Shown here: one piece after another, positions 1 to 18,790 of the stretch | Layout of the letters: every line of letters starts with the position of its first letter | Position numbering within the stretch: the first letter of the stretch is position 1 | Assembly: GCF_026340675.1 (NCBI RefSeq) | Contig: NZ_JAPEOX010000001.1 | Span: 4,402,001-4,466,000 of the forward strand | DNA: 64,000 nucleotides | From: Streptomyces sp. NBC_01264 | Lineage (GTDB): Bacteria; Actinomycetota; Actinomycetes; Streptomycetales; Streptomycetaceae | Reading direction: 5' to 3' | The notes under the pieces: model-generated | Told to the model about the DNA's origin: nothing | The model's input: only the letters and a program-made list of their open reading frames with translations | Database searches by the model: none | Position numbers and translations under genes: made by a program

Positions 1-1
1 C

Positions 2-1192
2 GACCGGGTGGAACCGGTGATCGACAGCGAGGTCACCCGCTGGCTGCGCGAGGCGGCGCCCGTGGCGCGCAGGACCGGGTCGATCTGCGCGGGAGCGCAC
101 CTGCTGGCCGCGGCGGGCCTGCTCGACGGGCTGGCCGCCACGACCCACTGGCTCACCGCCGCACGGCTGGCCGCCGACCATCCCGAAGTCACGGTGGATC
201 CGGACCCGATCTTCATCCGGTCCGGGAGCGTGTGGACCTGCGCCGGTGTCACCTCGGGGCTGGACATGGCGCTGGCGATGGTCGCCGAGGACCACGGCCA
301 GGCCCTCGCCCTCGCCACCGCGCGGATGATGGTCATGTACGTCAAACGCTCGGGCGGGCAGAGCCAGTTCAGCGTTCCGCTCTCGGCCCCGGCCACGTCC
401 GGCGACCGGATCGACGACCTGCGCGTGTGGATCGCCGACCACCTCACCGAGGACCTCACCGCGGAGGCCCTGGCGGCACGACTGCACCTGAGCGTGCGGC
501 TCCTGGGCCGGAGGCCCGTGATCGTCGACGCCGGGACGCCCGGCAGCGGCCGGAAGATCCACGACCGGATCACCGAGCTCGGAGTGGACCCCGGGGACGT
601 CTCGCTGATCGTCCTCACGCACGGGCACATCGACCACTTCGGCTCCGCCGCCGAACTGCACCGGCTCACCGGTGCCCCCGTCGCCGGGCACGTCGCCGAC
701 CTCGGCCCGTACCGCAGCGGCCGGGTCCGCGAGCCGTACCTGCCCACGGGCCCGATGGGCCGGATCATGGACCGGAGCAAGGAGCTGCACGCTCGGGCCG
801 AACCCGTCGAACCCCAGGTCCTGATCCGCGGTGAGACCTCCCTGGAGGACTTCGGGCTCGCGGCCCGCATCATGCCGACCCCGGGGCACACCGCCGGGTC
901 GATCTCCGTCCTCACCGATGACGGGGACCTCGTCGCCGGCGACCTGGTCGCCAACTCCGTCATGGGGCTCATCCCGGGCAAGCCGGCGAACCCGCCGTTC
1001 CACGACGACCCGCGGCGCAACCTCGTCAGCCTGCGCGAGATGCTCGACCTCGCCCCCACCAGGCTCCACGTCGGCCACGGCGCCCCGCTGGAACCCGACC
1101 GGGTCCGCCGCTGGGCCGACCGCGAGCACGCCCGCCTGTCGAAGCGCGAAGCGACCGGCCGGATCGCCACACGTGCCGGGGACGCGGCGTGA
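2..1192 (+). CDS. GlxA-type regulator fused in frame to a metallo-beta-lactamase-fold hydrolase (5' end outside window)
   Basis: The frame is open from the first bases, so the true start lies upstream. Counting from the GTG at 8, residues 1-130 match the C-terminal half of a DJ-1/PfpI (GATase1-like) sensor domain of GlxA/AraC regulators, with the SICAGAH and CAGVTSG segments and the GGQSQF motif. Residues 134-164 begin the AraC HTH, then break at about R164 (nt 497-505). From there the protein reads as an MBL-fold hydrolase with THGHIDH (H205, H207, D209, H210), H294, D312 and H357, which is a full dinuclear metal ligand set. The regulator has lost nearly all of its DNA-binding domain and the hydrolase has lost its N-terminal strand. 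The closest intact relative here is the GlxA gene at 34112. I infer a deletion fusion or an assembly chimera; the hydrolase half could still fold. Confidence 0.85.
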   Translation, partial: DRVEPVIDSEVTRWLREAAPVARRTGSICAGAHLLAAAGLLDGLAATTHWLTAARLAADHPEVTVDPDPIFIRSGSVWTCAGVTSGLDMALAMVAEDHGQALALATARMMVMYVKRSGGQSQFSVPLSAPATSGDRIDDLRVWIADHLTEDLTAEALAARLHLSVRLLGRRPVIVDAGTPGSGRKIHDRITELGVDPGDVSLIVLTHGHIDHFGSAAELHRLTGAPVAGHVADLGPYRSGRVREPYLPTGPMGRIMDRSKELHARAEPVEPQVLIRGETSLEDFGLAARIMPTPGHTAGSISVLTDDGDLVAGDLVANSVMGLIPGKPANPPFHDDPRRNLVSLREMLDLAPTRLHVGHGAPLEPDRVRRWADREHARLSKREATGRIATRAGDAA

Positions 1193-1215
1193 CCCTCCGT
1201 TCCCCGCTGGGTGTC

Positions 1216-1247
1216 GGCGCCGCGGGTCATACTCGTGCCGCGGCGCC
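1216..1247. terminator. Hairpin downstream of the fusion gene
   Basis: A perfect 10-bp inverted repeat (GGCGCCGCGG / CCGCGGCGCC) with a 12-nt loop lies 23 nt after the stop of the fusion gene and 32 nt before the next start. It has no U-tract, as is usual in this GC range. It could be a terminator or part of the next gene's leader. Confidence 0.45.
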
Positions 1248-1279
1248 GGCCGGAGCCGTAGGACGAGGGGAGCGATGAC

Positions 1280-1858
1280 ATGGCCAAGGTGCTGGTCTTC
1301 CACCACGGGCAGGGGCTGACGCCCGGCGTCCGGGCGTTCGCCGGGGAGCTGCGGCGTGCCGGACACGTCGTCCACGTCCCGGACCTGTTCGAAGGGCGGG
1401 TCTTCGACAGCCTCGACGAGGGCATCGGCTACGCCGGGGAGACCGGGTTCACCGCGATCACCGCGCGCGGAACCTCCGCCGCCGAGGTGCTGCCCGCGGG
1501 GCTCGTGTACGTCGGGTTCTCGCTCGGGGTCCTCCCGGCGCAGAAGCTGGCCCAGACCCGGCCCGGCGCGCGGGGCGCGGTGTTGATCGAGGCGTGCGTG
1601 CCCGTCTCGGAGTTCGGTGATGCCTGGCCCGGGGACGTTCCGGTCCAGGTCCACGGCATGGACGCGGATCCGTTCTTCGCCGGGGAAGGCGATGTGGACG
1701 CGGCCCGCGCGCTCGTCGGGACGGCCCGGGACGGACGGCTGTTCCTCTACCCCGGCGACCGCCACCTGTTCTGCGACAGCGGCCTGCCGTCGTACGACGA
1801 GGACGCCGCGCAGCGGGTCACCGGTCGGGTGCTCGCCTTCCTCGACCGCGTCGGATAG
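1280..1858 (+). CDS. Dienelactone hydrolase family protein
   Basis: This is a 192-residue cytosolic alpha/beta-hydrolase. The nucleophile elbow is GFSLG with S81, where classical dienelactone hydrolases have Cys. The acid is probably D128 or D130 in HGMDADP, and the base is H162 in YPGDRHLFCD, a typical DLH C-terminal motif. Length and motif order fit the DLH family of small hydrolases seen widely in actinobacteria. The ATG at 1280 is preceded by GAGGGGAG about 7 nt upstream. The substrate cannot be read from sequence. It is not visibly coupled to the catabolic operons and has no CTGAC operator. Confidence 0.85.
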   Translation: MAKVLVFHHGQGLTPGVRAFAGELRRAGHVVHVPDLFEGRVFDSLDEGIGYAGETGFTAITARGTSAAEVLPAGLVYVGFSLGVLPAQKLAQTRPGARGAVLIEACVPVSEFGDAWPGDVPVQVHGMDADPFFAGEGDVDAARALVGTARDGRLFLYPGDRHLFCDSGLPSYDEDAAQRVTGRVLAFLDRVG

Positions 1859-1862
1859 GCCT

Positions 1863-1885
1863 GGGGGCCGGCCTGGCCGGCCCCC
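1863..1885. terminator. Convergent terminator hairpin
   Basis: GGGGGCCGGCC and GGCCGGCCCCC form an almost gapless 11-bp palindrome, and a second copy of the right arm at about 1896-1909 can compete for pairing. It sits between two convergent genes (stops at 1858 and 1925), so it probably works in both directions. Confidence 0.6.
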
Positions 1886-1924
1886 TCCTCCACCCCAGGC
1901 CGGCCCCCGGCGTCGTCCGTGTCC

Positions 1925-3625
1925 TCAGCGGGTGCGCAGTTCGCGTTTGAGGACCTTGCCGCTCGCGTTGCGCGGGAGTTCGGTGACGAACTCCACCTCG
2001 CGCGGGACCTTGTAGTTGGCCATCTCCCGGCGGGACCACGCGATCAGGTCGTCGGCCGTGAGCACCGCTCCCGGGCGGCGGACCGCGTACGCCTTGCCCA
2101 CCTCGCCCAGCCGCGGGTCGGGCACTCCGACGACCGCCACGTCGGCGATGTCCGGGTGCAGGCCGAGGAGTTGCTCGATCTCGGCGGGGTAGGCGTTGAA
2201 GCCGCCGACGATGAACATGTCCTTGATCCGGTCGGTGATGCGCAGGTTCCCCGCGGCGTCGAGGACGCCGACGTCCCCGGTGCGGAGCCAGCCCTCGGGG
2301 GTGATGGCCCCGGCGGTTTCGGCGGGGTCCTCGAAGTAGCCGCTCATGACGTTGTGGCCGCGCACCCACACCTCGCCGGCCCGGCCCGTGGGCTGGGGGC
2401 CGCCGTCCGCGTCCACGACCCTGACCTCCGTCCCGGGGATGGCCCGGCCCGAGGTCGACGCGATGGTCTCCGCCGGGTCGCCGCGGCGGCACATGGTGAC
2501 GATGCCGCTCGCCTCGGAGAGCCCGTACGCGGTGAGGACGGTGCCGATGTGCAGCTCGCCGCGGAGCCGTTCGACGAGCTGCAGCGGGACCACGGCGGCG
2601 CCGGTGACGACCAGGCGCAGGGCGGAGAGGTCGTGGTGGGCGCGCTGGGGGTGGTCGAGGAGGGACTGGTGCAGGGTGGGCGGGCCGGGGAGTACGGAGA
2701 TCCGCTCGGCGGCGATGTTGGCGAGGACGGTGTCCACGTTGAAGACGGGCTGGGGGACCATCGTCGCCCCGCGCATCAGGCAGGCGATGACCCCGGCCTT
2801 GTAGCCGAAGGTGTGGAAGAAGGGGTTCACGATCAGGTAGCGGTCGCCCTCGCGCAGTCCGGCGAGCTCGCTCCAGACCTCGTAGCAGCGCAGGGACTGG
2901 GCGTGGGAGATGACGGCGCCCTTGGGGCTGCCGGTGGTGCCGGAGGTGAAGATGATGTCCGAGGGGGCGGTGGCGGGGATCGCGTCCGTACGGGCCCGGA
3001 CGGCCTCCGCGGTGACGGAGTCGCCGCCGGTCAGGAACTCCTTCCAGGTGCGGAAGGAGTCCGGGGCGTCCTCGGACAGGACGACGACCTGCTTCAGGTG
3101 GGGCAGGCCGGGCAGCGGCCCGGAGCCCTCGCCCTCGGCGGCGGCGCGGCGCAGGGAGGCGACGTAGGAGGTACCGAGGAAGGTGCCGGTGACGAAGAGG
3201 AGCCGGGCGCGGCTGCGCTGGAGGACGTAGGCGGCTTCGGAGCCCTTGAAGCGGGTGTTGAGGGGGACGAGGACGGCTCCGGCGGAGACGGCGCCGAGGG
3301 CGGAGACGATCCATTCGAGGGTGTTGGGCGCCCAGACGGCGACCCGGTCCCCCGGTTCCACGCCGGCGGCCATGCAGGCGGCGGCGGCCCGTTCGACGCG
3401 CTCGCCGAGCTGCGCGTAGTCGATCCGGACCCGCCCGTCGACGACGGCCTCGCGGTCGGCGTAGCGCTCGGCGGCGTGCCGTACGAGTCCGCCGATGCTG
3501 GTCCAGGCGAGATCGGCCCGTCCGTCCTCCGGCGTGTCCCGCGCCGTGTCCTGCGCCGCGTTCTCCACCGTGTCCTGCGCCGTGTCCGCGGCCCCGCGCG
3601 TGCGCTCGTCCTCGTCCTCGGTCAT
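1925..3625 (-). CDS. fadD3: FadD3-like acyl-CoA synthetase (AMP-forming)
   Basis: This 566-residue class I adenylate-forming ligase activates a carboxylate to acyl-AMP and then to the CoA thioester. The AMP-binding P-loop TSGTTGSPKG is at 227-236, NPFFHTFGYK follows at about 270, YGLSEA is the A5 motif, and the C-terminal catalytic lysine is K557 in ASGKVLK. NPFFHTFGYK, the GPPT and SLLDHPQR segments and TAYGLSEA match what I know of mycobacterial FadD3, which activates HIP, the C/D-ring propanoate of sterol degradation. The N-terminal 35 residues are a hydrophilic extension with imperfect AQDT repeats that is absent from typical FadD3, so a start near residue 38 is possible. The gene is divergent from the thiolase-like gene and shares the operator at 3654-3668, 29 nt upstream. 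Family assignment is firm; the exact substrate is inferred. Confidence 0.88.
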   Translation of the reverse strand: MTEDEDERTRGAADTAQDTVENAAQDTARDTPEDGRADLAWTSIGGLVRHAAERYADREAVVDGRVRIDYAQLGERVERAAAACMAAGVEPGDRVAVWAPNTLEWIVSALGAVSAGAVLVPLNTRFKGSEAAYVLQRSRARLLFVTGTFLGTSYVASLRRAAAEGEGSGPLPGLPHLKQVVVLSEDAPDSFRTWKEFLTGGDSVTAEAVRARTDAIPATAPSDIIFTSGTTGSPKGAVISHAQSLRCYEVWSELAGLREGDRYLIVNPFFHTFGYKAGVIACLMRGATMVPQPVFNVDTVLANIAAERISVLPGPPTLHQSLLDHPQRAHHDLSALRLVVTGAAVVPLQLVERLRGELHIGTVLTAYGLSEASGIVTMCRRGDPAETIASTSGRAIPGTEVRVVDADGGPQPTGRAGEVWVRGHNVMSGYFEDPAETAGAITPEGWLRTGDVGVLDAAGNLRITDRIKDMFIVGGFNAYPAEIEQLLGLHPDIADVAVVGVPDPRLGEVGKAYAVRRPGAVLTADDLIAWSRREMANYKVPREVEFVTELPRNASGKVLKRELRTR

Positions 3626-3653
3626 CGTCCGCCCTTCCCTGCAACACCACTAG

Positions 3654-3668
3654 CTGACTATCCGTCAG
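3654..3668. promoter_or_regulatory. CTGAC-N5-GTCAG operator, divergent fadD3/ltp promoter
   Basis: The perfect palindrome CTGACTATCCGTCAG lies between divergent starts at 3625 and 3720. The same 15 bases recur at 48790-48804. Its position over the promoter fits a repressor site of TetR type. Confidence 0.75.
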
Positions 3669-3719
3669 ATTAGCTGTAGCCTTCGCGGCTGTCAGTACTG
3701 GTGCACCCCGGAGGTGGCG

Positions 3720-4874
3720 ATGGCGGCAACGCTCAAGGACGCTACGGCGATAGTCGGCATCGGGCAGACCGCCTTTGCCAAACAACTGCCGCAGTCCGAA
3801 AAGGAACTGGCCTGCCGGGCCATTCTCGCGGCGCTCGAGGACGCGGGCATAGACCCGTCCGAGGTCGACGCCTTCTCCTCCTACACCATGGAGGAGACCG
3901 ACGAGGTCGAGGTCGCCAAGGCCATAGGCGCCGGCGACGTCACCTTCTTCTCCAAGATCGGCTACGGCGGCGGCGGTTCCTGCGCCACCGTCGGACACCT
4001 GGCCGCCGCCGTCGCCACCGGCCAGGCGAGCGTCGGCGTGGCCTGGCGCTCGCGCAAGCGCGGCTCGGGGCCGCGGCCGTGGAAGAACACGGCCGTCCAG
4101 CTCCCCACCCCCGGTCAGTGGACGCGCCCCTTCGGGCTGCTGCGCCCCGCCGACGAGATCGGCATGCTGGCCCGCCGCTACATGCACGAGTACGGCGCCA
4201 CCCGCGACCACCTCTTCAACGTCGCGATGGCCTGCCGCAACCGCGCCAACGAGAACCCGGCCGCGATGATGTACGAGCGCCCACTGACCCGCGAGATGTA
4301 CATGACCGCCCGCATGATCAGCGACCCGCTCTGCCTCTTCGACAACTGCCTGGAGACCGACGGCGCGCTGGCCTGCGTCATCGTGAGCGCCGAGCGCGCC
4401 CGCGACTGCCGCCAGAAGCCCGTCTACGTCCACTCCGTCGCCCAGGGCCTGCCCTCCCAGCACCACGGGATGGTCAACTACTGGAACGACGACCCGCTCT
4501 CCGGCCCCGCCTGGACGGCCGCCCGACACCTGTGGAAGCAGGCCGACTTCGGCCCCCAGGACGTGGACGTCGCCCAGATCTACGACGCCTTCACCCCGCT
4601 GATCCCGCTCTCCCTGGAGGGCTACGGCTTCTGCGGGCGCGGCGAGGGCGCCGCCTTCACCGAGGGCGGTGCGCTGGAGATGGGCGGCCGGCTCCCCATC
4701 AACACCGGCGGCGGCGGCCTCAGCGAGGCCTACGTGCACGGCTTCAACCTGATCAACGAGGGCGTCAAGCAGCTCCGCGGCATCTCCACCGCCCAGGTGC
4801 CCGACGCGGCGACCTGCCTGGTGACCGCCGGTGAGGGCGTCCCCACGTCCGCCATCCTGCTGCGAGCGTCCTGA
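3720..4874 (+). CDS. Ltp2-like thiolase-fold aldolase (lipid-transfer protein)
   Basis: This thiolase-superfamily protein of the SCP-x/Ltp type lacks the classical nucleophile context. IYDAF places a tyrosine at Y288 and LSEAYVHG another at Y338. Their 50-residue spacing equals that of the two active-site tyrosines (Tyr294, Tyr344) reported for the steroid side-chain retro-aldolase Ltp2, as I recall it. Such enzymes act as a complex with a DUF35 protein, and the DUF35 gene at 7023 originally followed directly. The ATG at 3720 is chosen because GGAGG ends 6 nt upstream; the in-frame GTG at 3714 overlaps that ribosome site. The reading frame is intact, but the operon is interrupted one base after its stop by the TnpB-like gene in antisense. 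The substrate is probably a beta-hydroxyacyl-CoA. Confidence 0.85.
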   Translation: MAATLKDATAIVGIGQTAFAKQLPQSEKELACRAILAALEDAGIDPSEVDAFSSYTMEETDEVEVAKAIGAGDVTFFSKIGYGGGGSCATVGHLAAAVATGQASVGVAWRSRKRGSGPRPWKNTAVQLPTPGQWTRPFGLLRPADEIGMLARRYMHEYGATRDHLFNVAMACRNRANENPAAMMYERPLTREMYMTARMISDPLCLFDNCLETDGALACVIVSAERARDCRQKPVYVHSVAQGLPSQHHGMVNYWNDDPLSGPAWTAARHLWKQADFGPQDVDVAQIYDAFTPLIPLSLEGYGFCGRGEGAAFTEGGALEMGGRLPINTGGGGLSEAYVHGFNLINEGVKQLRGISTAQVPDAATCLVTAGEGVPTSAILLRAS

Positions 4875-6851
4875 TCAGCTGATTGAACCTGTGTCAGACA
4901 TAGTTCCTGACCACAGGTTTTCCCATCGTGGAGGTGTGGCATGGGCGTGGAAGTGAAATCCCGCACCCAGTGCTGCTCCGCGCGGCCGGTGTCGGCTCGT
5001 GGGGGTGCTGATCGTCGTCACGCCCTGGTGCCGGTGAGCTGCGCGGGGCAGCAATGTCCGGTCCGTGTAGGCGTGTCCCTCCGGACGCTGGCCCGCCGAA
5101 CTCGTAAGCCTGGCAGGGGAGGGTGTCCGGCGTCGCCTGGGCGTCGGACGTGTTGTCATATGCCGAGTTGGGCCGGTCTTGGACCGATCCCACCGGCTCA
5201 CTTTCGGCACGGTCGGTGTAGTGATCGCGCCCGCTTCGAGGTCGTTAACCACGGCACGGATGGCCATCGCACCTGTGGTGCGGTCGGTCACCGTCTTCAA
5301 CTGATGGGCAAGTCCACGTGCCGCAATACGCTGCCAAGCACCGTGATCGCGATCTCCTTGCCACCCGCAGCCGGGATTGAGACAGAAGGCCCATTTCCAT
5401 CCGGGAGTGGTTGGCCGGTCGGGGGCTTTGCGGTGCCTGAGGGGGGTGAGGCATTGCGGGCAGTGCTTCGAAGTGTTGCGCGCCGGGACAGTGACGACGG
5501 CGATGCCTGTCTCAGCGGCCAGAAGCCGCATACGGTCCATGATCTGCCCGCGCACCTGCTGGGAGAGCCGAGTGTTGATTGTCCGGCCCATACCGCGCGC
5601 TTCCATGGAGCGGAGGTCTTCCCTGTAGATGACGCTCGCCCCAGCTGCGATGGCCTGATCGACCGCCCAACGGGCCGCTGCCCAGGCCAATGCATCGTTG
5701 AGATTCGACCGGCGTGCGCTGACCCGGCTGATTTCCTCACTCAGAACGGTGTTTTTGGCGACGAGGCAGTGCTGCTCAGCCCCGGCGATCAGCTGCTGAT
5801 ACCGCCTGGCTTTGGCGTGCAGATGTTCGGAAAGCCGGCGCAACCGGTGCTGCTTCGCGAGGACCCCAGCCGCCCGGAACAAGGCCCCGCCCCCCAGGAC
5901 GGCTATCCTCCCGCCCTCGTGCACTCGGGCCGCACCCGCACTGAGCAGAGTGTTCAGGCCCCAGTCCACACCGAGCGCGACCACGTGCCCGCTGCGCGCC
6001 GCCATCGGGACCGGGTAGCTGTAGGCGAGATCGGCTCTTACACAGCCCTGGTACGGACGGAGCGTGGGCAGGTGCAGCACCGCATCCACAGGGATCGTCG
6101 GAGGCAGCTTGATAGGGCAGGCGACCCATGTCCAGTCCTTATAGGACTGCGGATCGGGGCGAGTGGGAAGCTGCAAGCGCAGCAGCGCCCGGCCCGGCTG
6201 ATCCGCACGTTCGATGGTTGCCTGCTGCCCGTCACACGCCGACAACAACAGCATCGGTGCCACCCGGGGCGCCCTCTCCAGCACGAACAGGTCAGCCGGC
6301 ATCCGGCCCTGCTGTTTGATGAACGTGGCAATCTGCCGGGTGCTGGATGTGATGACACTCGACGGCAGATTCTGCCCTCCAGGCACCATTTCGCGCACAG
6401 CGTCCCACTCCCAGCTCGTGCGCTTGCCGGGGTCGGCGGGCCAGGTCGTGACCACTCCGGCAGTCAGATCAGCACGCCACTTCACCGATCGGAGCGTACG
6501 CCCGGCCTGTTCCTGCGCCATTCGAACGATCCTGTCATTGACGCGGATGCCCCCAGGCGGCGCGATGGTCCAGCCAAGGCGGCGCAGCGCCATCCACGCA
6601 TTCGACGGCAGCTTCCTGCCCGCGCCGTCCTCCCCGGAGGCGAGCGCATCCACATCCGGCCCGTTCCAGTGTGCGGCCAGCAGCTCGCCGACCATGCCGG
6701 AGACCAGGGTGGCTGCCCACCCGACACGATCCGTCAGCACGCTGGGGGTCAGTAGTTCGCCAGTCCCCTCATTCACCCCAGCCCGCAACAGGCCACGGGC
6801 ACAGGCGGTCCGAGTCGTCTCGCCATCTGCCAGCGGCACCTTCCGGCTCAT
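4875..6851 (-). CDS. TnpB/Cas12-like RuvC nuclease (IS605 OrfB-type, long form)
   Basis: This 658-residue protein carries the RuvC/zinc-ribbon arrangement of TnpB. D296 is in GVDWGL (RuvC-I), E411 in IYREDL (RuvC-II), the ribbon cysteines are C464, C467, C490 and C495, and D500/D502 in GDRDHGAW form RuvC-III. The usual DRDxNAA has become DRDHGAW, but the catalytic D-E-D set is present. It is unusually long: about 290 residues precede RuvC-I, and a basic, low-complexity tail of about 110 residues follows the nuclease core. By analogy with known TnpB loci, the tail's DNA may encode the 3' part of a guide (omega) RNA. No TnpA and no CRISPR array are adjacent. It lies antisense inside the ltp-DUF35-echA operon and its stop abuts the stop of the upstream gene. 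Codon use is slightly less GC-extreme than in its neighbours. Confidence 0.8.
   Translation of the reverse strand: MSRKVPLADGETTRTACARGLLRAGVNEGTGELLTPSVLTDRVGWAATLVSGMVGELLAAHWNGPDVDALASGEDGAGRKLPSNAWMALRRLGWTIAPPGGIRVNDRIVRMAQEQAGRTLRSVKWRADLTAGVVTTWPADPGKRTSWEWDAVREMVPGGQNLPSSVITSSTRQIATFIKQQGRMPADLFVLERAPRVAPMLLLSACDGQQATIERADQPGRALLRLQLPTRPDPQSYKDWTWVACPIKLPPTIPVDAVLHLPTLRPYQGCVRADLAYSYPVPMAARSGHVVALGVDWGLNTLLSAGAARVHEGGRIAVLGGGALFRAAGVLAKQHRLRRLSEHLHAKARRYQQLIAGAEQHCLVAKNTVLSEEISRVSARRSNLNDALAWAAARWAVDQAIAAGASVIYREDLRSMEARGMGRTINTRLSQQVRGQIMDRMRLLAAETGIAVVTVPARNTSKHCPQCLTPLRHRKAPDRPTTPGWKWAFCLNPGCGWQGDRDHGAWQRIAARGLAHQLKTVTDRTTGAMAIRAVVNDLEAGAITTPTVPKVSRWDRSKTGPTRHMTTRPTPRRRRTPSPARLTSSAGQRPEGHAYTDRTLLPRAAHRHQGVTTISTPTSRHRPRGAALGAGFHFHAHATPPRWENLWSGTMSDTGSIS
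4886..4919 (-). repeat. Terminal hairpin at the 3' end of the TnpB-like element
   Basis: AACCTGTG-TCAG pairs with CTGA-C-CACAGGTT, giving 12 bp with one bulged base and a 9-nt loop. It overlaps codons for the last residues of the TnpB-like protein and stands about 10 nt from the ltp stop. Subterminal hairpins mark the right ends of IS605 elements, and in TnpB systems the omega RNA ends here just before its guide. Its role here is inferred. Confidence 0.5.
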
Positions 6852-7022
6852 CCCTCACCCCCCGCATCCTGTGCTGTCATCCGATCAACGACACCACTGG
6901 CGAAAGGTCACCCGTTCGACTCGTGAACCCGTGCCCGGCAACCACGCCGGACGCCCACCACGACGAGAACGCAACATCACTACGGATACCCAAAGAACCA
7001 TGTGAGTCTGAGGAGCTGACCA

Positions 7023-7487
7023 ATGACCTCCGCATCCATAGAATCCGCTGACGAACTCCTCCTCCCCGTCCCCGACGGGGACGGTGCCCCCTTCTGGGAG
7101 TACGCCGCCCAGGGCGAACTACGCGTCCAGGCCTGCGCGGCCCCCGCGTGCGGGAAGCTGCGCTTCCCGCCCCGCCCCTGCTGCCCGCACTGCCGGTCCT
7201 TCGACTCCGAATGGCGCCGGATGAGCGGCCGGGGCCGGATCTGGTCGTACGTCCAGCCGCACCCGCCGCTGCTGCCCGCGTACGCCGCGCAGGCCCCGTA
7301 CAACGTGATCCTCGTGGAGCTGGCCGACGCCCCGCAGATCCGCCTCGTCGGGAACCTCGTCACCTCCGCCGACGCCCCGCTGGACTCGATGGACCCGGCG
7401 CGGCTGCGCATCGGCGCGCGGGTCCAGGTGGTGTTCACCGAGACGGGCGGGATCGCGGTGCCGCGCTGGATCCTGGAGAAGTCGTGA
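7023..7487 (+). CDS. DUF35 zinc-ribbon/OB-fold protein, partner of the thiolase-like protein
   Basis: This 154-residue protein has a rubredoxin-like zinc ribbon (CAAPACGK then CCPHC, residues about 38-58) followed by an OB fold. DUF35 proteins such as the ChsH2 C-terminal domain bind thiolase-like Ltp enzymes and help position acyl-CoA. GAGGAG precedes the ATG by 7 nt. Its GTGA stop overlaps the start of the hydratase by 4 nt, so the two are translationally coupled. It must have been directly downstream of the ltp gene before the TnpB-like insertion. It may now depend on read-through or on a promoter inside the element. Confidence 0.85.
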   Translation: MTSASIESADELLLPVPDGDGAPFWEYAAQGELRVQACAAPACGKLRFPPRPCCPHCRSFDSEWRRMSGRGRIWSYVQPHPPLLPAYAAQAPYNVILVELADAPQIRLVGNLVTSADAPLDSMDPARLRIGARVQVVFTETGGIAVPRWILEKS

Positions 7488-8284
7488 CGGCCCAGGGGAC
7501 CCCCGGCCTGCGGGTGGAGCGGGACAAGACCACCGGGGTCGCGGTCGTCACCCTGGACCGGGAGCGCAAGCACAATGCGATCGACCTGGGGACCGCAGCC
7601 GAACTCGCGCGAGTATGGAGGGAGTTGCGCTACGAGGACGCGGTACGGGCGATCGTGCTGACGGGCGCCGGGCAGGCGGCCTTCTGCACGGGCATCGACC
7701 GGGGCGTCGAGGTGCCGCAGCCCTCCTCGCCGTACTCGGTGGACGACCCGCTCGTCGCCATCGGGCCGAAGGCCAACGACCTGTGGAAGCCGGTGGTCGC
7801 CGCCGTCAACGGCATGGCCTGCGGCGGGGCGTTCTACCTGCTGGGCGAGTCGGAGTTCATCATCTCCTCCGCCTCCGCGACCTACTTCGACCCGCACACC
7901 AGCTACGGGATGGTCAGCGCGTACGAGGCGATCTACATGGCGCAGCGCATGCCCTTCGGCGAGGCCGCCCGGATGTCCCTGATGGGCACGGCGGAACGGC
8001 TCTCCGCGCGGCGGGCGTACGAGATCGGCCTGGTCTCGGAGCTGGCGGAGCCCGGGGAGCTGCTCCCGGCGGCCCTGCGGGCGGCCGAGACGCTGGCCGG
8101 CTTCCCGACGGAGGCCGTGCAGGGCACCGTACGGTCCCTGTGGGCGGCGAAGCAGGCCACCCTCCAGCAGGCGCTGGCGCAGGCTCCGGGACTGGTGGCG
8201 CTGGGGAACCTGCCGCCCGAGCGGCAGGCGGAGCTGTTCGCCGGGCGCCGCGGCGGGGCGGGCCAGGAGCCCCGGATCCGCTGA
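7484..8284 (+). CDS. Enoyl-CoA hydratase/isomerase family protein
   Basis: This is a 266-residue crotonase-fold protein with an oxyanion-hole segment (FCTGIDRGVEVP) and NGMACGGAFYLL, where other hydratases have NGxAxGGG. The first catalytic Glu position of classical hydratases is not obvious. FDPHTSYGMVSAYEA replaces the usual F-x-E-P stretch, so it may catalyse another crotonase reaction such as isomerisation or C-C hydrolysis. The GTG start at 7484 overlaps the DUF35 stop. It is the last gene of the ltp-DUF35-ech operon and is followed by a strong hairpin. In sterol catabolism, crotonases act on side-chain and ring intermediates; the exact step here is unknown. Confidence 0.85.
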   Translation: MTAQGTPGLRVERDKTTGVAVVTLDRERKHNAIDLGTAAELARVWRELRYEDAVRAIVLTGAGQAAFCTGIDRGVEVPQPSSPYSVDDPLVAIGPKANDLWKPVVAAVNGMACGGAFYLLGESEFIISSASATYFDPHTSYGMVSAYEAIYMAQRMPFGEAARMSLMGTAERLSARRAYEIGLVSELAEPGELLPAALRAAETLAGFPTEAVQGTVRSLWAAKQATLQQALAQAPGLVALGNLPPERQAELFAGRRGGAGQEPRIR

Positions 8285-8313
8285 GGCGGGGGCTGCCTTC
8301 GCGGGCCCCCGCC
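8285..8313. terminator. Convergent terminator hairpin
   Basis: GGCGGGGGC pairs with GCCCCCGCC across an 11-nt loop, one base after the hydratase stop and 5 nt from the convergent gene's stop. It probably terminates both transcripts. Confidence 0.65.
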
Positions 8314-8317
8314 GCCG

Positions 8318-8932
8318 CTAGCGGGTCTTCCTCGTGGACCTGGGCTTCGGCTTGCTCGGGGTCTTGCCGCCCGTGCTGCCGCCGGTGGTGGTGGACCCGG
8401 TGCTGCCGGAGCCGGACGTCGAGGTCGGGGTGGGCGACGCGGTCGAGAGGGTCTGTACGGGGCCCAGGGTGCAGCGCTTGACCTCGCCCGCCTTGGCCGC
8501 GCTCGTCATCGGCAGGTCGACCGTCCGGCTCTCGCCCGCCTTGAGGGCGAGGTCCACAGAGCCGGAGTCGACCCGGCCGGAGGCGCCTTCGAAGACCAGC
8601 GGGACGCGGAAGGTGTGCCCGGACGCCGAGTCGGAGGTGACCTTGACGGTGGCCTTCGCCACCGAAGGCCCGGCGCAGGTGACGACCTCGGCGTGCGCGA
8701 GCGGCCGGGTCCCGGTGGCCGTGGCCGTGGCCGTGGGGGTGGCCGCGGAGCCGCCGCCGCTCCCGCCCGTGCCGCTGTAGCTCTTCTTCTTCGACTTGCT
8801 CTTGGAGCTGGAGCAGCCGCCCCCGCTGCTCTTGCTCTTGCCGCTTCCGCCCGTCGACGAGAACCCCGTCAGCGCGAGCACCACACCCACCAGTACCGCT
8901 GTGAGCCGGACCCGCCGTCCCGTGACCACCAT
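8318..8932 (-). CDS. Secreted or membrane-anchored Ser/Thr/Gly-rich protein
   Basis: The product has 204 residues. An N-terminal hydrophobic segment (residues 9-25, LTAVLVGVVLALTGFSS) follows VTGRRVR, a plausible signal peptide or anchor without a lipobox. Next come a Ser/Lys/Gly-rich linker (35-70), a compact central region with two cysteines (about 85-160) and a Ser/Thr/Gly tail ending in basic residues. The ATG at 8932 is chosen because GGGGAGGGG stands 8 nt upstream; a longer frame to 9010 has no ribosome site. I do not recognise the family. The low-complexity flanks suggest a wall-exposed or stalk-like protein. Confidence 0.6.
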   Translation of the reverse strand: MVVTGRRVRLTAVLVGVVLALTGFSSTGGSGKSKSSGGGCSSSKSKSKKKSYSGTGGSGGGSAATPTATATATGTRPLAHAEVVTCAGPSVAKATVKVTSDSASGHTFRVPLVFEGASGRVDSGSVDLALKAGESRTVDLPMTSAAKAGEVKRCTLGPVQTLSTASPTPTSTSGSGSTGSTTTGGSTGGKTPSKPKPRSTRKTR

Positions 8933-9051
8933 GGCCTGAACCCCTCCCCGTTGGACAACCGGCGGCACGCTACCAGGAGGCTCGAGGCGCAACGGTACGG
9001 TGGCCGCCACGCGCGACGGCCGCGATCAGCCACTCCCCGGGGGGACACACC

Positions 9052-9381
9052 ATGACCGACGAGACCAACACCAGCCCTGACGCCGGAGTCATCACGGCGA
9101 TCGCCCGCCTCCAGGCCCGGCCCGGGCTGGAGGCGGAGGTCCGCGCGCAGGCCCTGTCCCTGGTCGCGCCGACCCGGGCCGAAGCGGGCAACGTCTCCTA
9201 CCGCGCGTACGAGGACCCGACCGCTCCGGGTGCCTGGGTCGTCGTGGAGGAGTGGGCGGACTCCGCGTCCTGGGAAGCCCACCTGGCCTCCCCGCACCTG
9301 GCCGAGGCCCTGTCCCGTACGGGCGCCCTGCTGGCCGGGGCGCCGGTCGTGCGGGTGTTCCCCCCGGCGCTCCCCTCTTAG
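9052..9381 (+). CDS. Antibiotic biosynthesis monooxygenase (ABM)-domain protein
   Basis: This 109-residue protein is one ferredoxin-like alpha+beta barrel domain. The core spans residues 12-105, with VITAIARLQARPG, the central SYRAYEDP and the VVVEEWADSASWEAHLASPHL segment typical of YgiN/ABM quinol monooxygenase-like proteins. These act as small cofactor-free dimers, often on quinols or polyketides. GGGGGG lies 8 nt before the ATG. The gene is followed by an unusual G/C repeat tract and seems monocistronic. The substrate is unknown. Confidence 0.8.
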   Translation: MTDETNTSPDAGVITAIARLQARPGLEAEVRAQALSLVAPTRAEAGNVSYRAYEDPTAPGAWVVVEEWADSASWEAHLASPHLAEALSRTGALLAGAPVVRVFPPALPS

Positions 9382-9382
9382 G

Positions 9383-9490
9383 GACCCGGGGGCGGGACTC
9401 CGGGGGCGGGACTCCGGGGGCGGACCCCACGTCCGGACCCCGCCCCGGACCCCGCCCCGGACTCCGCGTGCGGGACTCCGGGGGCGGGCG
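9383..9490. repeat. GC repeat tract able to form a long hairpin
   Basis: Three tandem copies of a roughly 14-nt unit (CCGGGGGCGGGACT and variants) are followed by complementary CCGGACCCCGCC-type units. The tract is therefore both a direct repeat and a long imperfect inverted repeat. The G runs on the plus strand could also form a quadruplex. It separates the ABM gene from the membrane-protein gene. Confidence 0.7.
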
Positions 9491-9537
9491 TAGCGTCGGG
9501 ATCGAGATCCAGACCCACTCCCCCCGGAGGGCCGGGC

Positions 9538-10089
9538 ATGATCCGCAACGTACTCGGCTCGTTCCTGGGTCTGATCGGAGCGACGGCCGCCGTCTGGAGC
9601 CCCTTCCGTGCCTGGTACGACGGCCGTCACGGGCGCGACTACCGCATCGAGGAGCTCTTCTCCTCCTCCGGGATCACCGATGACAAGGCCGCCCTGCTGG
9701 GCTCGCTGCTGCTGCCCTTCCTCTTCGCCGCCGTGCTCGCGCTGGTCGCGATCGTGCTGCGCTCCCGGCTGCTCATGGCCCTCTCCGGGGTCGTCGTCCT
9801 CGGCTTCGCCGTGCTCTGGATGGTCCGCCAGGGCCAGGCCGCGGGGAGCCTCTCGGTCGGCGGCGACGGCAGCGCGGGCCTCGGGGACGGCCTCGCCAAC
9901 GCCTTCGGTGCGGGCGCCCTGCTCATCCTCGCGGCGGCCGTGATGAGCGGCCGGCCCCGCCGCCGCGACCGGGTCGCCAGGGAACCCGCCCCGGAGCCGT
10001 ACCGGGAGCCGCACCCGGAGCCCGTCGAGGACCCTGACCGTCCCCCGGCCCCGTCGGCCTGGCCTCCGCCGCCGCAGGACCACTCGTAG
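9538..10089 (+). CDS. Small integral membrane protein with Pro-rich tail
   Basis: The product has 183 residues. An N-terminal hydrophobic stretch (1-20) precedes a soluble YDGRHGRDYRIEELFSS segment, followed by three likely membrane helices (about 54-75, 79-96 and 120-138). The C-terminus is a 40-residue Pro/Glu/Arg-rich cytoplasmic-type tail. GGAGGG stands 6 nt before the ATG. I recognise the arrangement from streptomycete conserved membrane proteins, but no function is known to me. It converges on the cyclophilin gene across a terminator. Confidence 0.7.
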   Translation: MIRNVLGSFLGLIGATAAVWSPFRAWYDGRHGRDYRIEELFSSSGITDDKAALLGSLLLPFLFAAVLALVAIVLRSRLLMALSGVVVLGFAVLWMVRQGQAAGSLSVGGDGSAGLGDGLANAFGAGALLILAAAVMSGRPRRRDRVAREPAPEPYREPHPEPVEDPDRPPAPSAWPPPPQDHS

Positions 10090-10144
10090 GACCTCGGGGC
10101 CCTGCGCGACCTCATGGGCCTGTCCGCCGCCCGGACATGACGGC

Positions 10145-10173
10145 GGCCCCGTCCCCCCGGAGGGGGCGGGGCC
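10145..10173. terminator. Convergent terminator hairpin
   Basis: GGCCCCG-TCCCCC pairs with GGGGGC-GGGGCC with a small internal irregularity. It lies between the convergent stops at 10089 and 10201. Confidence 0.6.
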
Positions 10174-10200
10174 GGCCAGCCGTTGCGGGCGGGGTGGGGA

Positions 10201-10704
10201 TCAGGCCTCGACGACGCCGGACGCCGCGATCTCGACCTTGCCCTTGGGGGCGCCCGAGGCGGAACCGAGCGCCTCGATCTGGTCGACGAGCTCCTGGCCC
10301 GAGACGACCTCGCCGAAGACGACGTGCTTGCCGTCGAGCCACGGGGTGAGGACGGTGGTGATGAAGAACTGCGAGCCGTTGGTGTTCTTGCCTGCGTTCG
10401 CCATCGACAGCAGGTACTTGCGGTCGTGCTTCAGGGTGAAGTTCTCGTCGGCGAACTTCTCGCCGTAGATGCTCTTGCCACCCGTGCCGTTGTGGTTGGT
10501 GAAGTCACCGCCCTGCAGCATGAACTGCGGGATGACGCGGTGGAAGCCGGAGCCGGCGTAGCCGAAGCCGTTCTGGCCGGTGCACAGCTCGCGGAAGTTC
10601 TGGGCGGTCTTCGGGACGACCTCGTCGAAGAGGTTGAAGACGATGCGACCGGCGGGTGCGCCGTTGATGGTGATGTCGAAGAATACGTTGCTCATGGGGT
10701 CCAT
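10201..10704 (-). CDS. ppiA: Cyclophilin-type peptidyl-prolyl cis-trans isomerase
   Basis: This cytosolic cyclophilin of about 165 residues catalyses X-Pro isomerisation. The active-site [15 protein letters not shown] (catalytic Arg) is at about 54-68, followed by [15 protein letters not shown], and the cyclosporin-contact Trp is in [12 protein letters not shown]. No signal peptide is present, in line with streptomycete CypA. Two starts fit: the ATG at 10704 with GGGAG upstream, or the ATG at 10695 that begins MSNVFF, the usual N-terminus. It is monocistronic and unrelated to the catabolic genes. Confidence 0.95.
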
Positions 10705-10796
10705 CCTGTCACTCCCGGTGCGGTGCGCGACCCCGAGGGGGCCGTGACGGGGCCCCCGGACGGCTCAGCCGCAGCTCAGGCCGCGGCTGAACCGGG

Positions 10797-13223
10797 TCAG
10801 CCTCCCGTACGGGTCCCCGTGCCCTTGGCGGCGTCCAGTGCGTAGACGCAGCGGTCCTTGCTGCACGCGTAGACCACGCCCGCCTCGGCCACCGGGGCCC
10901 CGGTGATCTCCCCGCCGGTGGCCAGTTTCCAGCGGAGCTGGCCGCCCGCCGCGTCCAGGGTGTACAGGCAGTGGTCGGCCGACCCGAAGTGGACGCGGCC
11001 GTCCGCGACCGCCGGGGAACCGGTGATCTCGCCGCCCGCCGCGAACCGCCACTTCGGGGTGCCGGTGACCGCGTCGAGCGTGTACACGGCGCTGCCCGCG
11101 GCCAGGTGGACGTTGCCCGCGGCCACGAGGACCGGGTCGGCGGCCTGCCGGGGCTCGGTGGCGATCCGCCAGCGGTCCTTGCCGGTGGCCGCGTCCAGGG
11201 CGTAGACGGTGCCCAGGTAGTCCGCGAGGTAGACCCCGCCGCCCGTGACGGCCGCGCCGGAGGCGAAGGCCGGGGGCGCGAGGAACACGGCGGGGGCCTC
11301 GAAGTGCCAGCGGACCCGGCCCGAGGCCCGGTCGATGGAGATCACCCGGGTGCCTGCGGCGACGTAGACGTTGCCGTCGGGCGCGGGGGTGACCCGTACG
11401 GGCACGTTCCCGCAGGAGGCCGCGTCGCCGACCGGGTACGACCAGGACTCCCGCCCGGAGCGGGCATCGAGGGCGCGCAGCCGGGCGTCCTGCCACACGT
11501 AGACCGTGCCCTCGTGCAGGACGGGGGCCGCCTCGGCGGTCTCGAACTCGCTCTGCGCGCCGGTCAGCTCCCACAGCTTGTGCCCGTTGGACGACTCCCA
11601 GGCCTGTACGCCGCCTCCGCGCGTGGCGGTGACGACGGTCCCCCGGTCGGCGCGCAGGGCGTACACCCAGGCGTCGGCGGACAGCCGCCAGCGCTCGGAG
11701 CCGTCACCGGCGTCGAGGGCGTAGAGGGAGGGGCCGTCGGAGGCGTGGATGCGCCCGTCGGAGACGGCCATGGACCAGGCGACGTCGCGGGTCTTGAACT
11801 GGCGGCGGCCGCTGGCCACGTCCAGGGCGTGCACCTCGAAGGAGGTGACGTAGAGCAGGTCGCCGGCGACGGTCGGGGTGCCCCAGACCTCGTTCGACAT
11901 CCGGAACCGCCAGGGCCGCCAGCGGCCGCTGTCGGGGGCCGGACCCGGGTTCGGTACGAGGACCGAGGGCGCGGGGCCCGCCACCGGGGTACCGGCGGGC
12001 GGCCGGATCCAGCCGGTCGCGGAGTCCGCCGCTGCGGCGTGGGCGGCCGGGGCCGAGGCGGAGGCCTGCGGTCCGGGGCCGATCGGCACCGGGGAGCCGC
12101 CGAGCCGGACGGGCTCGCCCGAGGGCGCCATCGGGGGGTGCTCGGGCCGCTGCGGGACGGCCTGGCCGGTCCGCGGGTCGGTCCAGGGGTCGGCTCCGCC
12201 GCGCCGCCTGCGGTGCGTGGCGGGACCGGAGGCGGGACCGGCGCTCTCGATGGGCGCGGAGACACCGGCCCGGGGCAGCGCCGGCTTCGGCACGGCGGCA
12301 GCGGCCGCGGCGGCCGCCGCGGCGGCGTTGCGGTGACCGGCCCGCCGGGCCTCGATCATCGCGACGGCCCGCTCGGGCAGCCACGCCGAGGCGGTACCGC
12401 TCTCGTCGCCGCCCTCGAAGAGGTGCGGGGCCAGCTGCGCCTGCAGGTCGGCCGGGGTCGGCCGCTGCGTGGCGTCCATCTTCATGCAGGAGTCGATCAG
12501 CGGGCGGAGCTCGTCGGGGAGCCCCTCCAGGTTGGGGCCCTCGCGCAGCAGCATGAAGACCGTCTCCACCGGGTTCGCCCCGTGGTACGGCGGATGCCCA
12601 GTGGCGGCGAAGACCAGCGTGGAGCCGAGCGAGAACACGTCGCTGGCGCCCTTGACGCTGCGCGAGTCCTTGGCCTGCTCCGGCGACATGTACGCGGGGG
12701 TGCCGACGGCGACGTTCGTCATGGTCAGGCGGGTGTTGGAGACCCCGCTGGCGATGCCGAAGTCGATCACGCGCGGGCCGTCCTCGACGACGAGCACGTT
12801 GGAGGGCTTCAGGTCGCGGTGGACCAGGCCCGCCCCGTGGATGGACTGGAGCGCCTCGGCGATGCCGGCGGCGAGCCACCGTACGGCCTGGGCGGGCATC
12901 GGCCCGCACTCGTGGACGATCTCCTCCAGGGAGGGCGCCGGGACGTACGCGGTCGCCAGCCACGGCACGGCCGCGCGCGGGTCGGCGTCGACCACGGCCG
13001 CGGTGTAGAAGCCGGAGACGGCGCGGGCCGCCTCCACCTCACGGGTGAAGCGGACGCGGAACAGCTGGTCCTCGGCGAGCTCGGTGCGCACCGTCTTGAT
13101 CGCCACCCGGCGCCCGGACGCCGACCGGGCGAGATAGACCAGCCCCATGCCGCCGGCGCCGAGCCGTCCCAGCACCTCGAAGGGGCCGATCCGTCTCGGG
13201 TCGTGCTGCGTCAGCTGCTCCAC
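10797..13223 (-). CDS. Ser/Thr protein kinase with C-terminal PQQ-like beta-propeller
   Basis: Hanks-type kinase of about 808 residues. The glycine loop GAGGMG is at 22-27, the ATP lysine K43 is in [12 protein letters not shown] has catalytic D137, and D154 is in DFG. SPEQ replaces APE, as is common in Streptomyces. The catalytic domain ends near residue 265. An Ala- and Pro-rich linker (about 300-420, with a run of alanines) leads to a PQQ-type propeller (about 430-808) built of repeats such as [13 protein letters not shown] and [13 protein letters not shown]. No transmembrane helix is evident, so the sensor may be cytoplasmic. The GTG at 13223 has GGAGG 6 nt upstream and starts just before the kinase fold; a longer frame to 13262 lacks this support. 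Confidence 0.9.
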
Positions 13224-13531
13224 CACTCGCCTCCACACCCATCCCCGTACGGGGTCCCTCACGGGCCCCGCTCTTCCAGCCGTCGCCGGTGGGCATCGCC
13301 GTCGTCGCCGTCACGTCACCGGATGCGCGCGAGCCGCCGCGGGTCCCTGCCCCGTGCAGCGTCTCACCCCGGGGGCCGCCCGGGTCGCGCACCCCCGATT
13401 CTGTCAGGCCCGCGCCCGCTCCGGCCCCGGCACGGCGGGTGGCTGTGCACGGGGTGCGGGCAAAGTCGTACAACCCCCCGGGGGCCCGTGTGTCTAGCCC
13501 CCCGTTCAGTCAGTCGACACCCGGGAGAAAC
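13224..13531. other. Gene-free interval between the kinase and the broken secreted-protein gene
   Basis: This holds the divergent promoter region. The only signal I can define is the CAACC/GTCTA pair at 13471-13496, which points towards the secreted-family gene. Confidence 0.5.
13471..13496 (+). promoter_or_regulatory. ECF-like promoter (CAACC-N16-GTCTA)
   Basis: CAACC at 13471-13475 and GTCTA at 13492-13496 are separated by 16 nt. The same layout, preceded by GTA, occurs before the two other members of the secreted family (15209 and 57727). Spacing and GTC core fit group IV sigma promoters. Confidence 0.55.
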
Positions 13532-15141
13532 ATGCGACACCGTTCGACTTCAGCCACCGTCATCGCCGTGGTGGTGCTCGGGGGACTGGCCGTGCCGGGG
13601 GCGGCGCATGCCTCGGCGGCGACTGCGGGGGCAAGATGAGCGCCACCCGTGAGGGAGCCGTCTCGTACCAGGGGTCTATGACGGTCCCGGTGTCCCCACC
13701 CCCGTCCATGTGCGGGACAAGAGGACGGGTCTGCGCGTCGCGTCCGTGACCCGCTTCCACCCCGTGCCCGCCGGATCCTGCGGACGACGGGCACGCGGAA
13801 ACCCCGCGCGGGATCTCCGACCCGCTCAAGCTGGAAGCCCTCGGGATGTACACGCTCGAGGTGGACAAGGCGGGCGGCACCGTTGTCTGCGGTGACTTCG
13901 ACTACGGGCTCCGCACGGAGGTCGCCCAGCCCGTCGCGCAGGGCACGGTTTCCCTGAGCAACCTGAAGTCCACCGTGTCGACGAGCCTCACCGGCTTCGA
14001 CCCGCGGACCCAGAAGACCGCTCCGCTCAAGAACACCAAGGTCACCGTCTCCCACGAGGGCTCCGCTCGGCGGGAGGTGTCCACCGACGCGCAGGGCCGC
14101 CTGTCCTCGACCGTCACGTTCCTGGGCACGGAGAGCTCGACCGTGGTGACCGTCGACCTGGCGGCCACCCCGGAGAGGGGCCCCGGGACGGGCCGGGTCC
14201 GCGTGGCCGCGGACGGCCGGAAGGCCGAGGTCGTCCTCGATGCCGCCTCCCGGAACGTCACGGCCCGCTACGGGGAGGTCGTGAAGCTCACCGGCAAGGC
14301 CGTCATGATCGCCGCGGACGGCACGCGCACGCCCGTGCCCGAGGGCACCGCGCTCTCCACGGGGATCAACGGTGCCGTGACGAGGACGGGAGCGGACGGC
14401 CGGTTCGAGCGATCGGTACGGGCCTTGAGCCCCGCGGGCGTCTCGACCTGGTGGCTGGGCGGAAACGCGCATCCGTGGCTGTACGGCGGTGGGGGCCTCA
14501 CCAAGGTCCGGCTCCTCGCGGCCACCGGCATCGGCGATTTCAAGGCCACGATCGACGCGGAACGGCGCGTGACCTTCACCGGGGGCACGGTCCTGAAGCC
14601 CGCCGCCGCCGACCCCGGTTCCACCCGCATGGAGGTGCAGTACTCGGCCGACGGCAAGACCGGCTGGACGACGCGCAAGACGTTCGGCTTCACCTTCAAC
14701 CAGGCCTTCGCGCAGACCCTGCCGGGCGAGGCCGACGGCTACTGGCGGCTGCAGTACTCCGGGGGCAAGAGCAGTACGGGCGTGATCCTCGAACGCACCG
14801 TCACCCCGCCGGTCCGGCTGACCCGGACGGCGACGGCCTTCACCTCCTTCGACGCGGCTCCGGAGCCGGTCCGCAAGGGCCAGACCTTCACCATCAAGGG
14901 CACCCTGCGGCACGGGACGCCGGCGAAGGCCTACGCCGGCCGGACGGTGGTCTTCTGCTTCCGGCCCGAGGGCAGTCAGACCTTCGTCCACCAGGGCCAG
15001 ACCAAGACCGCCGCGGACGGCACCTTCGCCCACTCTTTCAAGGCCGACCGCACCGGCACCTGGATCGCCCGCTACCGCGACGCCGACGGCAAGCACTTCG
15101 ACGCCGAATGCCGCCGGGACGAACTCGCCGTGAACCCGTAA
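13532..15141 (+). pseudogene. Broken paralogue of the secreted multi-domain protein at 15271
   Basis: Pieces of one protein lie in three different frames. The signal peptide (MRHRSTSATVIAVVVLGGLA... to AHASAA) runs from 13532 and stops at 13639. A middle piece reading VHVRDKRTGLRVASVTRF is in a second frame from 13704. The C-terminal 430 residues are open in a third frame, with recognisable sequence from about 13810 to the stop at 15141. Each piece aligns with the intact neighbour at 15271, with the stretch between the signal peptide and VHVRDK shortened. At least two frameshifts and a deletion are needed. The long C-terminal frame is well conserved, so the decay looks recent, but it lacks an export signal in frame. 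The promoter-like motif is still present. Confidence 0.8.
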
Positions 15142-15208
15142 CGCACATCCCGTACGGACCCTCCCCCGCAGGTCGGCCCGATCGGCCCAACCTGCGGGGA
15201 AAGGCGTA

Positions 15209-15235
15209 CAACCCATCGGGGGTTCCACGGGTCTA
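15209..15235 (+). promoter_or_regulatory. ECF-like promoter (CAACC-N17-GTCTA)
   Basis: CAACC at 15209-15213 and GTCTA at 15231-15235 lie 36 nt before the GTG start at 15271. The context GTACAACCC...GGGTCTAAGCCCC matches the paralogue upstream almost base for base. Confidence 0.6.
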
Positions 15236-15270
15236 AGCCCCGTTCAGCTCGTTCATGTCCGGGGGGATCC

Positions 15271-16947: not shown

Positions 16948-16979
16948 CCGTAGCCATAGCCATAGCCATAGCCATAGGC
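16936..16979. repeat. Hexamer microsatellite AGCCAT/AGCCGT
   Basis: About seven tandem hexamers (AGCCGT then AGCCAT) start at the secreted gene's stop codon and run up to the convergent VOC gene's stop. In the plus frame each unit supplies another TAG. Slippage here would not harm either protein. Confidence 0.8.
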
Positions 16980-17780: not shown

Positions 17781-18081
17781 GAGCCCGGTTCCTTCCGTTG
17801 TGCGGGGGTGTGCAAGGGTGTGGAACCTCCGCGCACGTTCTGCCTCGTTCGCCCAGTCATGTCCTCCGGATCATGATGTGCCCGAAAACTTGTCCACAGC
17901 CTGTTGATAAGACTATTCGGGGGACAGCGTCCTGAGCCGGACGGCGCGCCCGGGGCGCCCGCCCGGCCGGAATCGGTCGCACCGGCGGGCCGGGACGGGG
18001 GTACGCCCAGGCCAGGGGTCCCGTAACCCCATTTGCAGGCGGCCGAATCGCGCGCCGATCACCCCTCGGTAAGCTGACGGC
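17781..18081. other. Divergent intergenic region with a DnaA box
   Basis: TTGTCCACA, the preferred streptomycete DnaA box, occurs once at 17890-17898 and is followed by CTGTTGATAA. It also holds the degenerate operator next to the TetR start. No small gene is evident. Confidence 0.5.
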
Positions 18082-18088
18082 ATGACAG
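18074..18088. promoter_or_regulatory. Degenerate CTGAC-N5-GTCAG site over the TetR start codon
   Basis: CTGAC-GGCAT-GACAG keeps the arms with one mismatch (GACAG for GTCAG), and its spacer contains the first two bases of the ATG. It may be an autoregulatory site or a chance match. Confidence 0.35.
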
Positions 18089-18729: not shown

Positions 18730-18756
18730 GCGGCGGACCCCCACAGGGTCCGCCGC
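18730..18756 (+). terminator. Terminator hairpin after tetR
   Basis: GCGGCGGACCC and GGGTCCGCCGC form a perfect 11-bp stem with a CCACA loop, starting 1 nt after the TetR stop. It separates tetR from the convergent reductase gene. Confidence 0.75.
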
Positions 18757-18790
18757 CGCCTTCACCCCTCTTACGGAACCTCCGCCGTGA

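Follow-up and report, generated by a model that had tools for sequence, protein, structure and literature searches.

The 658-residue TnpB-like nuclease encoded antisense between ltp and its DUF35 partner gene is best explained, with a probability of about 0.85, as the product of a tnpA-less member of an actinobacterial IS607-family lineage, whose TnpB would act with an omega RNA to cut the empty ltp allele. It lies in the window, the 64,000-nucleotide stretch of Streptomyces sp. NBC_01264 DNA analysed here. The initial annotation rightly described an antisense insertion beside ltp; its span of 4875..7022 contains the ORF, and toward 7022 it also takes in the leader and the left end (Table 1).

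Table 1. Features at the ltp insertion, in window positions
Feature	Position	Strand	Basis
Whole element, ~2140 bp, left end 7004, right end 4865	4865..7004	-	End alignments, empty site in relative
AGACT, host side of left junction, predicted TAM-like target (AGGCT in empty relative)	7005..7009	-	Junction comparison
Leader block, conserved in 16 aligned Streptomyces copies without tnpA match	6871..6925	-	Leader alignment
tnpB ORF, 658 aa, RuvC D296/E411/D500, zinc-ribbon Cys 464/467/490/495	4875..6851	-	ORF listing, Pfam, homologue alignments
Putative omega-RNA scaffold, overlaps the ORF's basic tail	4865..5231	-	Synonymous constraint, fold; 5' limit approximate, from codon 541
3' hairpin, 8 + 5 bp	4886..4919	-	Fold; same place in relatives
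Putative guide, antisense to last ltp codons	4845..4864	-	First 20 bases outside right end, length assumed
ltp (lipid-transfer protein/thiolase), last codons and stop from element	3714..4874	+	ORF listing, domain match, empty-site comparison
DUF35/ChsH2-like partner gene, zinc ribbon and OB fold	7023..7487	+	ORF listing, Pfam

Comparison with an unoccupied locus delimits the insertion. The empty site in relative G013 (L076), whose ltp DNA is 95% identical, reads CTGCTGCGAGCCTGAGGAGCTGAC; in the window, CTGCTGCG precedes the element and AGTCTGAGGAGCTGACC comes after it. Read on the tnpB strand, the unoccupied site has AGGCT and then CGCAGCAGG. Aligning relatives, a check proposed at the outset for element ends and target motif, gave ends near 4865 and 7004 and the motif AGGCT, with the ends uncertain by 2–3 bases because (G)CT is common to both junctions. 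All 28 orthologous ltp loci from relatives (L076–L103) are without the element, 26 of them with flanks at most ~140 bases apart and two (L094 and L099) with sequence continuing into the next gene, so that this strain's locus is the only occupied one of 29 compared. Host sequence runs uninterrupted across the motif at the empty sites of four insertions, the window's and three more whose empty sites were sought in 295 genomes; among the fetched loci, those spanning the join numbered 12 for L138 (11 AGGCT, 1 AGGCC), 13 for L165 (4 AGGCT, 9 CGGCT) and 2 for L170 (AGGCT and AGGTT). By these junctions, the element entered the extreme end of ltp, immediately following a host motif of the AGGCT type. 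The G+C fraction inside the insert is 0.646–0.684 versus mostly 0.70–0.80 elsewhere in the first 14 kb of the window, where a few flanking bins are equally low (for example, 0.674 at 3501–4000).

The motif recurs at insertions elsewhere. Of 63 left junctions that differ in their flanks, 54 carry AGGCT (35/36 Micromonospora-type and 19/27 Streptomyces-type), a count slightly favoured because the Streptomyces left ends were found by a motif starting AGGCT (34 bases, with up to 11 substitutions, one insertion and one deletion allowed). The set excludes L135 and any copy whose left end was not located, and two of its rows, L002 and L159, have nearly the same flank. The other junctions read AGACT (three, including the window's), AGGGT (three), AGGTT (one) and GGGCG (one), and one row is base-shifted. 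Right flanks carry at most 0.26 bit of information per position (64 right ends). At position -4, left junctions have G (62 of 63) and right ends have C (63 of 64). A motif filter kept 65 right ends from 206 loose candidates; 61 of these read GACGCT, in which nothing corresponds to the GG of AGGCT. Since (G)CT is present at both junctions and the GG is absent at right ends, the core is (G)CT rather than GG. The empty sites indicate no further duplication, and the repeat pairs found for the element include no end-to-end inverted repeat. From the junctions, AGGCT is the predicted TAM.

The insertion has left the ltp protein nearly unchanged. Its C-terminus is LLRA-stop in the empty relative versus LLRAS-stop in the window, from which the element's right end is seen to have replaced the last ltp codon and stop. 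The distance between ltp and the DUF35 gene is now 2.1 kb, and the insertion may exert a polar effect. Two features of the surroundings stand apart from the element: positions 13814-16900 hold two adjacent stretches ~1.8 kb apart and 72–88% alike in pieces, which suggests a tandem gene duplication, and a single plus-strand ORF at 8-1192 combines an FtrA-type regulator (residues 9–171) with a metallo-beta-lactamase-fold domain (~171–304), as either a fusion or a joined gene.

Same-length relatives occur in unrelated places in Streptomyces, Micromonospora and Actinomadura. The initial annotation had reasoned that relatives in unrelated places without conserved ends would speak against it; the places did prove unrelated, but the ends are conserved while flanks vary from copy to copy. 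A contig scan gave 30 loci, some of them fragments at contig ends: 22 in Micromonospora sp. MP36, 4 in Micromonospora CB01531, 3 in Streptomyces and 1 in Actinomadura. The MP36 genome holds 33 left-end matches (E <= 0.01), 32 of which start at the first base of the query, and 33 right-end pattern matches (at most 2 mismatches; reversed-pattern control, 0). The 3' part was matched in 58 of 295 Streptomyces genomes (E <= 0.001), and 28 of these, including the window's, reached at least 200 bits by hand count. Among the 39 fetched Streptomyces stretches, 19 have an uninterrupted tnpB of more than 600 aa when judged by a single HSP, and several others have internal deletions that keep the 3' part (for example, L140, L153 and L168–L171). 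Seven plasmid records match the element, one over at least 80% of its length, and the phage collection gave no match.

We also considered an autonomous partner with other cargo among the MP36 left-end variants. Those seen looked like copies of the tnpB element or short left-end remnants, in 13 stretches compared by BLAST (with ORFs listed for L065, L069 and L073), some of which were read only in part, some cut by contig ends and L073 by another insertion. L069 (3518-3559) and L072 (1614-1654) contain left-end-like fragments of ~40 nt with no tnpB match behind them; from ~1040, L073 has ~150 nt of left end followed by another insertion-sequence-like stretch (transposase-like ORF, 1096-1389). 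Elsewhere, L144 is a tnpA-bearing copy that appears to lie inside another tnpB gene, the joined flanks of which read in frame across AGGCT.

The relatives also reveal the ancestry of the element. In L163, a 212-aa ORF upstream of tnpB scores 141 bits on the NCBIfam IS607 transposase model NF033518 (cut-off 110). This tnpA is matched in 7 of the 39 fetched Streptomyces stretches (L144, L149, L154, L160, L162, L163 and L166), over the first 51 residues only in L154 and in two pieces in L149 and L166, and in 2 of the 29 loci L002–L030 (L006 and L026). Nine Micromonospora loci have a weak match in front of tnpB to the DNA-binding part of tnpA, within residues 15–59 (E 4e-7 to 7e-4). Serine-recombinase tnpA sequence upstream of tnpB in these relatives assigns the lineage to IS607. 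The window copy itself has no tnpA, as the initial annotation noted for its vicinity, and a search of the whole genome found no IS607 tnpA; the best match there (E 0.0014) is to what its sequence and a neighbouring dnaJ-like gene identify as an HspR-like regulator. By gene content, the window element is thus a tnpA-less derivative of the IS607 lineage and not an autonomous IS607 element.

Copies without tnpA outnumber tnpA-bearing copies in the fetched sample. A tree of 26 intact ORFs, comprising 24 distinct ones, is weakly resolved, with good support for 8 of its 21 inner branches; it places the window copy together with L142 and the identical pair L003/L136, all tnpA-less (support 99/96), and requires two changes in tnpA status. 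A leader block of ~55–60 nt, ATCGAATG-GTGACCTTT ... GTCGTTGATCGGATGACAGCA, with repeat-like GATCG motifs, is strongly conserved among the aligned Streptomyces copies, the window's included. It has no blastn match in the leader of tnpA-bearing L163 and was likewise not observed in Micromonospora L004 or in L013. The block may be a TnpA-binding site or the tnpB promoter.

The protein retains the residues expected of an active nuclease. The RuvC triad D296, E411 and D500 and the four zinc-ribbon cysteines, recognized at the outset and proposed for checking in homologues, are invariant in all 120 listed homologues (the window's own protein, P0001, among them) and in a 47-row family alignment (A5). 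The region before the RuvC-I aspartate spans 295 residues, in line with the ~290 first estimated; the idea that the protein is abnormally long holds against typical TnpB but not within its own family, in which length ranges from 606 to 685 aa (120 listed of 1256 homologues found among 7996 scored candidates). We conclude from these homologues that a long TnpB is a family trait. Pfam Cas12f1-like_TNB scored 33.9 bits (cut-off 26.3), NCBIfam guided_TnpB (NF040570) scored 40.1 bits, under its cut-off of 100, and a search of the strain's genome with the protein returned one match, itself. A scan of 47 family members found no accepted Pfam domain in the N-terminal half, and a PDB profile search gave coverage limited to RuvC-II to the zinc ribbon. 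Pro-Fanzor TnpBs are defined by DPG and Ealt motifs in PMC10711439; by that definition, D296-W-G at RuvC-I and a Glu411 located 53 residues ahead of the first zinc cysteine rule out membership.

Identity at four-fold third positions of tnpB, compared among the 26 intact ORFs (24 different), is 0.46–0.60 over codons 1–540 (one bin, 0.42), rises to 0.67–0.79 over codons 541–630 and is 0.48 in the last 28 codons. This synonymous constraint implies that the nucleic acid encoding part of the basic tail is itself conserved. For the final 190 nt, the fold is better than that of all 200 shuffles (z -3.0), and the hairpin that had been remarked at the 3' end is real, with AACCTGTG and CACAGGTT plus a 5-bp inner stem giving 13 pairs in the fold. 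Across 25 rows (24 equal-length copies of 59 nt and the window, with at least one more such length, L171, left out), it is paired in 74% of cells versus at most 39% when slid, a percentage favoured by taking the counted structure from L153, itself a row. Its covariation score exceeded all 500 shuffles, which related sequences can do without structure; four pairs changed on both sides (reached by 223 of 500 shuffles), and further pair types were reached by 202 of 500. A second small stem is paired in 90% of cells with no covariation. RNAalifold, applied to 51 of the 65 right ends (A2), placed the hairpin poorly and gave almost no covariation (term -0.43), with only 3 of 22 pairs altered on both sides. 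Rfam had no match in window 4500-7400 at E up to 1. The earlier proposal of an omega RNA ending at the hairpin, with a guide reading into ltp, is supported only indirectly, by fold, hairpin pairing and synonymous constraint, but gains little or nothing from covariation in RNAalifold or the second stem. Taken together, the hairpin and a portion of the basic-tail sequence resemble an omega-RNA scaffold. Alone among the 65 right ends, the window has GATCAGGACGCT, which is one base short within the final 13 bases of the scaffold; this deletion may cripple the putative RNA of this copy.

These observations suggest a cycle in which the element, having inserted after an AGGCT-type motif at the end of ltp with (G)CT at both junctions, would be transcribed over the 3' portion of tnpB and across its right end to give a scaffold running into ltp. 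TnpB would bind this omega RNA and cut DNA in which AGGCT precedes the ltp guide. Such DNA would be the empty allele, whether produced by excision or arriving from a relative, and repair from the occupied copy would keep or spread the element. The occupied copy itself would escape cutting, since ACGCT rather than AGGCT stands before the guide at its right end. The host genome contains 10 places with at most 3 mismatches to the motif plus the first 15 guide bases (reversed-pattern control, 1); the nearest is the occupied site, with one mismatch, in the motif, and the next-nearest mismatches at two positions, a motif base and the first guide base. Movement would need an IS607 TnpA supplied in trans. 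Given that no IS607 TnpA was found in the genome, the element here is probably stranded. RNA production, cutting and movement in trans are all inferred. We think it unlikely, yet worth stating, that tnpA-less copies spread largely by TnpB-driven homing, in which empty alleles are cut and recombination copies the element in. In that case the lineage would count as an IS607-derived, RNA-guided homing element, and its enlarged N-terminal half may serve such homing.

A more substantial alternative shares this origin and holds that the window copy is a dead remnant, without transposase, with its scaffold broken by the deletion and its ORF still open through recency. We rate this as a real prospect, somewhat short of even odds; it is compatible with the IS607-lineage explanation, as it concerns the function of this copy and the explanation concerns the lineage. 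The absence of any IS607 tnpA hit in the genome, the deletion seen in 1 of 65 right ends and a site still empty in a relative with nearly the same ltp DNA all fit decay. Against it, the ORF is fully open with every family-invariant residue kept, and dN/dS for codons 1–540 of the window ORF against eight relatives is 0.17–0.22, a value that mostly reflects older branches.

The initial annotation had also offered an RNA-guided repressor or a domesticated guardian of the site. Either would silence or guard ltp, as a guide region antisense into that gene might invite; every TnpB, however, has its own insertion site as guide target. Intact catalytic residues and copies with unrelated flanks elsewhere argue against a repressor, and the absence of the element from every fetched orthologous locus (28 of 28) argues against domestication, which makes these readings very improbable. 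Its third suggestion, a mobile-element nuclease, agrees with the conserved ends, unrelated insertion places, empty sites and tnpA-bearing relatives, and the window element is better read as mobile than in either of these other ways. A stray type V CRISPR effector has almost nothing in its favour, as the PADLOC Cas12f/Cas12u3 matches are weak (best 40.1 bits), a direct-repeat search of window 1-20000 found no CRISPR-like array, as first noted, and the transposon ends, empty sites and IS607 tnpA in relatives point elsewhere.

The IS607-lineage reading defines an actinobacterial branch of the family with clear ends, a 5-nt TAM, AGGCT, predicted from its junctions, a putative RNA scaffold overlapping the basic tail of the protein and a built-in self/non-self difference at position -4. 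The ends, predicted TAM and -4 difference make TAM and cleavage tests direct. The lineage also offers a long TnpB whose N-terminal half awaits an accepted Pfam domain, and a case in which an element supplies the stop codon of a host gene with little change to the host protein.

Several known systems bear comparison with this lineage. TldR proteins are nuclease-dead repressors derived from TnpB, with an inactivated RuvC; unlike them, the TnpB-derived protein of the window keeps its catalytic residues. Similarity to Cas12f and Cas12g is weak and runs from RuvC-II to the zinc ribbon, and unlike those systems, the element has no CRISPR array within window 1-20000. ISDra2 represents the TnpBs of IS200/IS605, and IS1341-type elements are TnpB-only and insert after a fixed motif. 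With IS200/IS605 and IS1341-type elements (IS1341 is also mentioned in PMC9956272), the window element shares the TnpB core, the tnpB-only layout and fixed-motif insertion; unlike IS200/IS605, its relatives carry an IS607 serine recombinase, and no Y1 transposase was seen. A limited search of the open-access literature yielded no description of the window TnpB lineage; subscription papers lie mostly outside it, so a description elsewhere is possible.

The closest likeness is to IS607 itself. IS607 of H. pylori and IS1535 of M. tuberculosis use a (G)GG target and a serine transposase and are without terminal inverted repeats or target duplication (PMC6188088). The window element likewise lacks terminal inverted repeats and target duplication, with the serine transposase found in its relatives only, whereas its lineage uses AGGCT. 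IS607-family elements such as ISXfa1 have a GG core and the TAM GGG, and in known TnpB systems the guide RNA extends past the right end into flanking DNA, with the target DNA being cut beside the TAM (PMC10711439). Like ISXfa1-type elements, relatives of the window copy have a serine-recombinase tnpA followed by tnpB, exchange occurs over a short matching core without duplication, and a guide RNA is expected from the right end into the flank. Unlike them, the lineage has a (G)CT core, a 5-nt target, AGGCT, and a TnpB of ~655 aa. Of the traits that mark IS607, tnpA is thus missing from the window copy and the GG core from the lineage; its working mode would nevertheless be that of IS607 TnpB.
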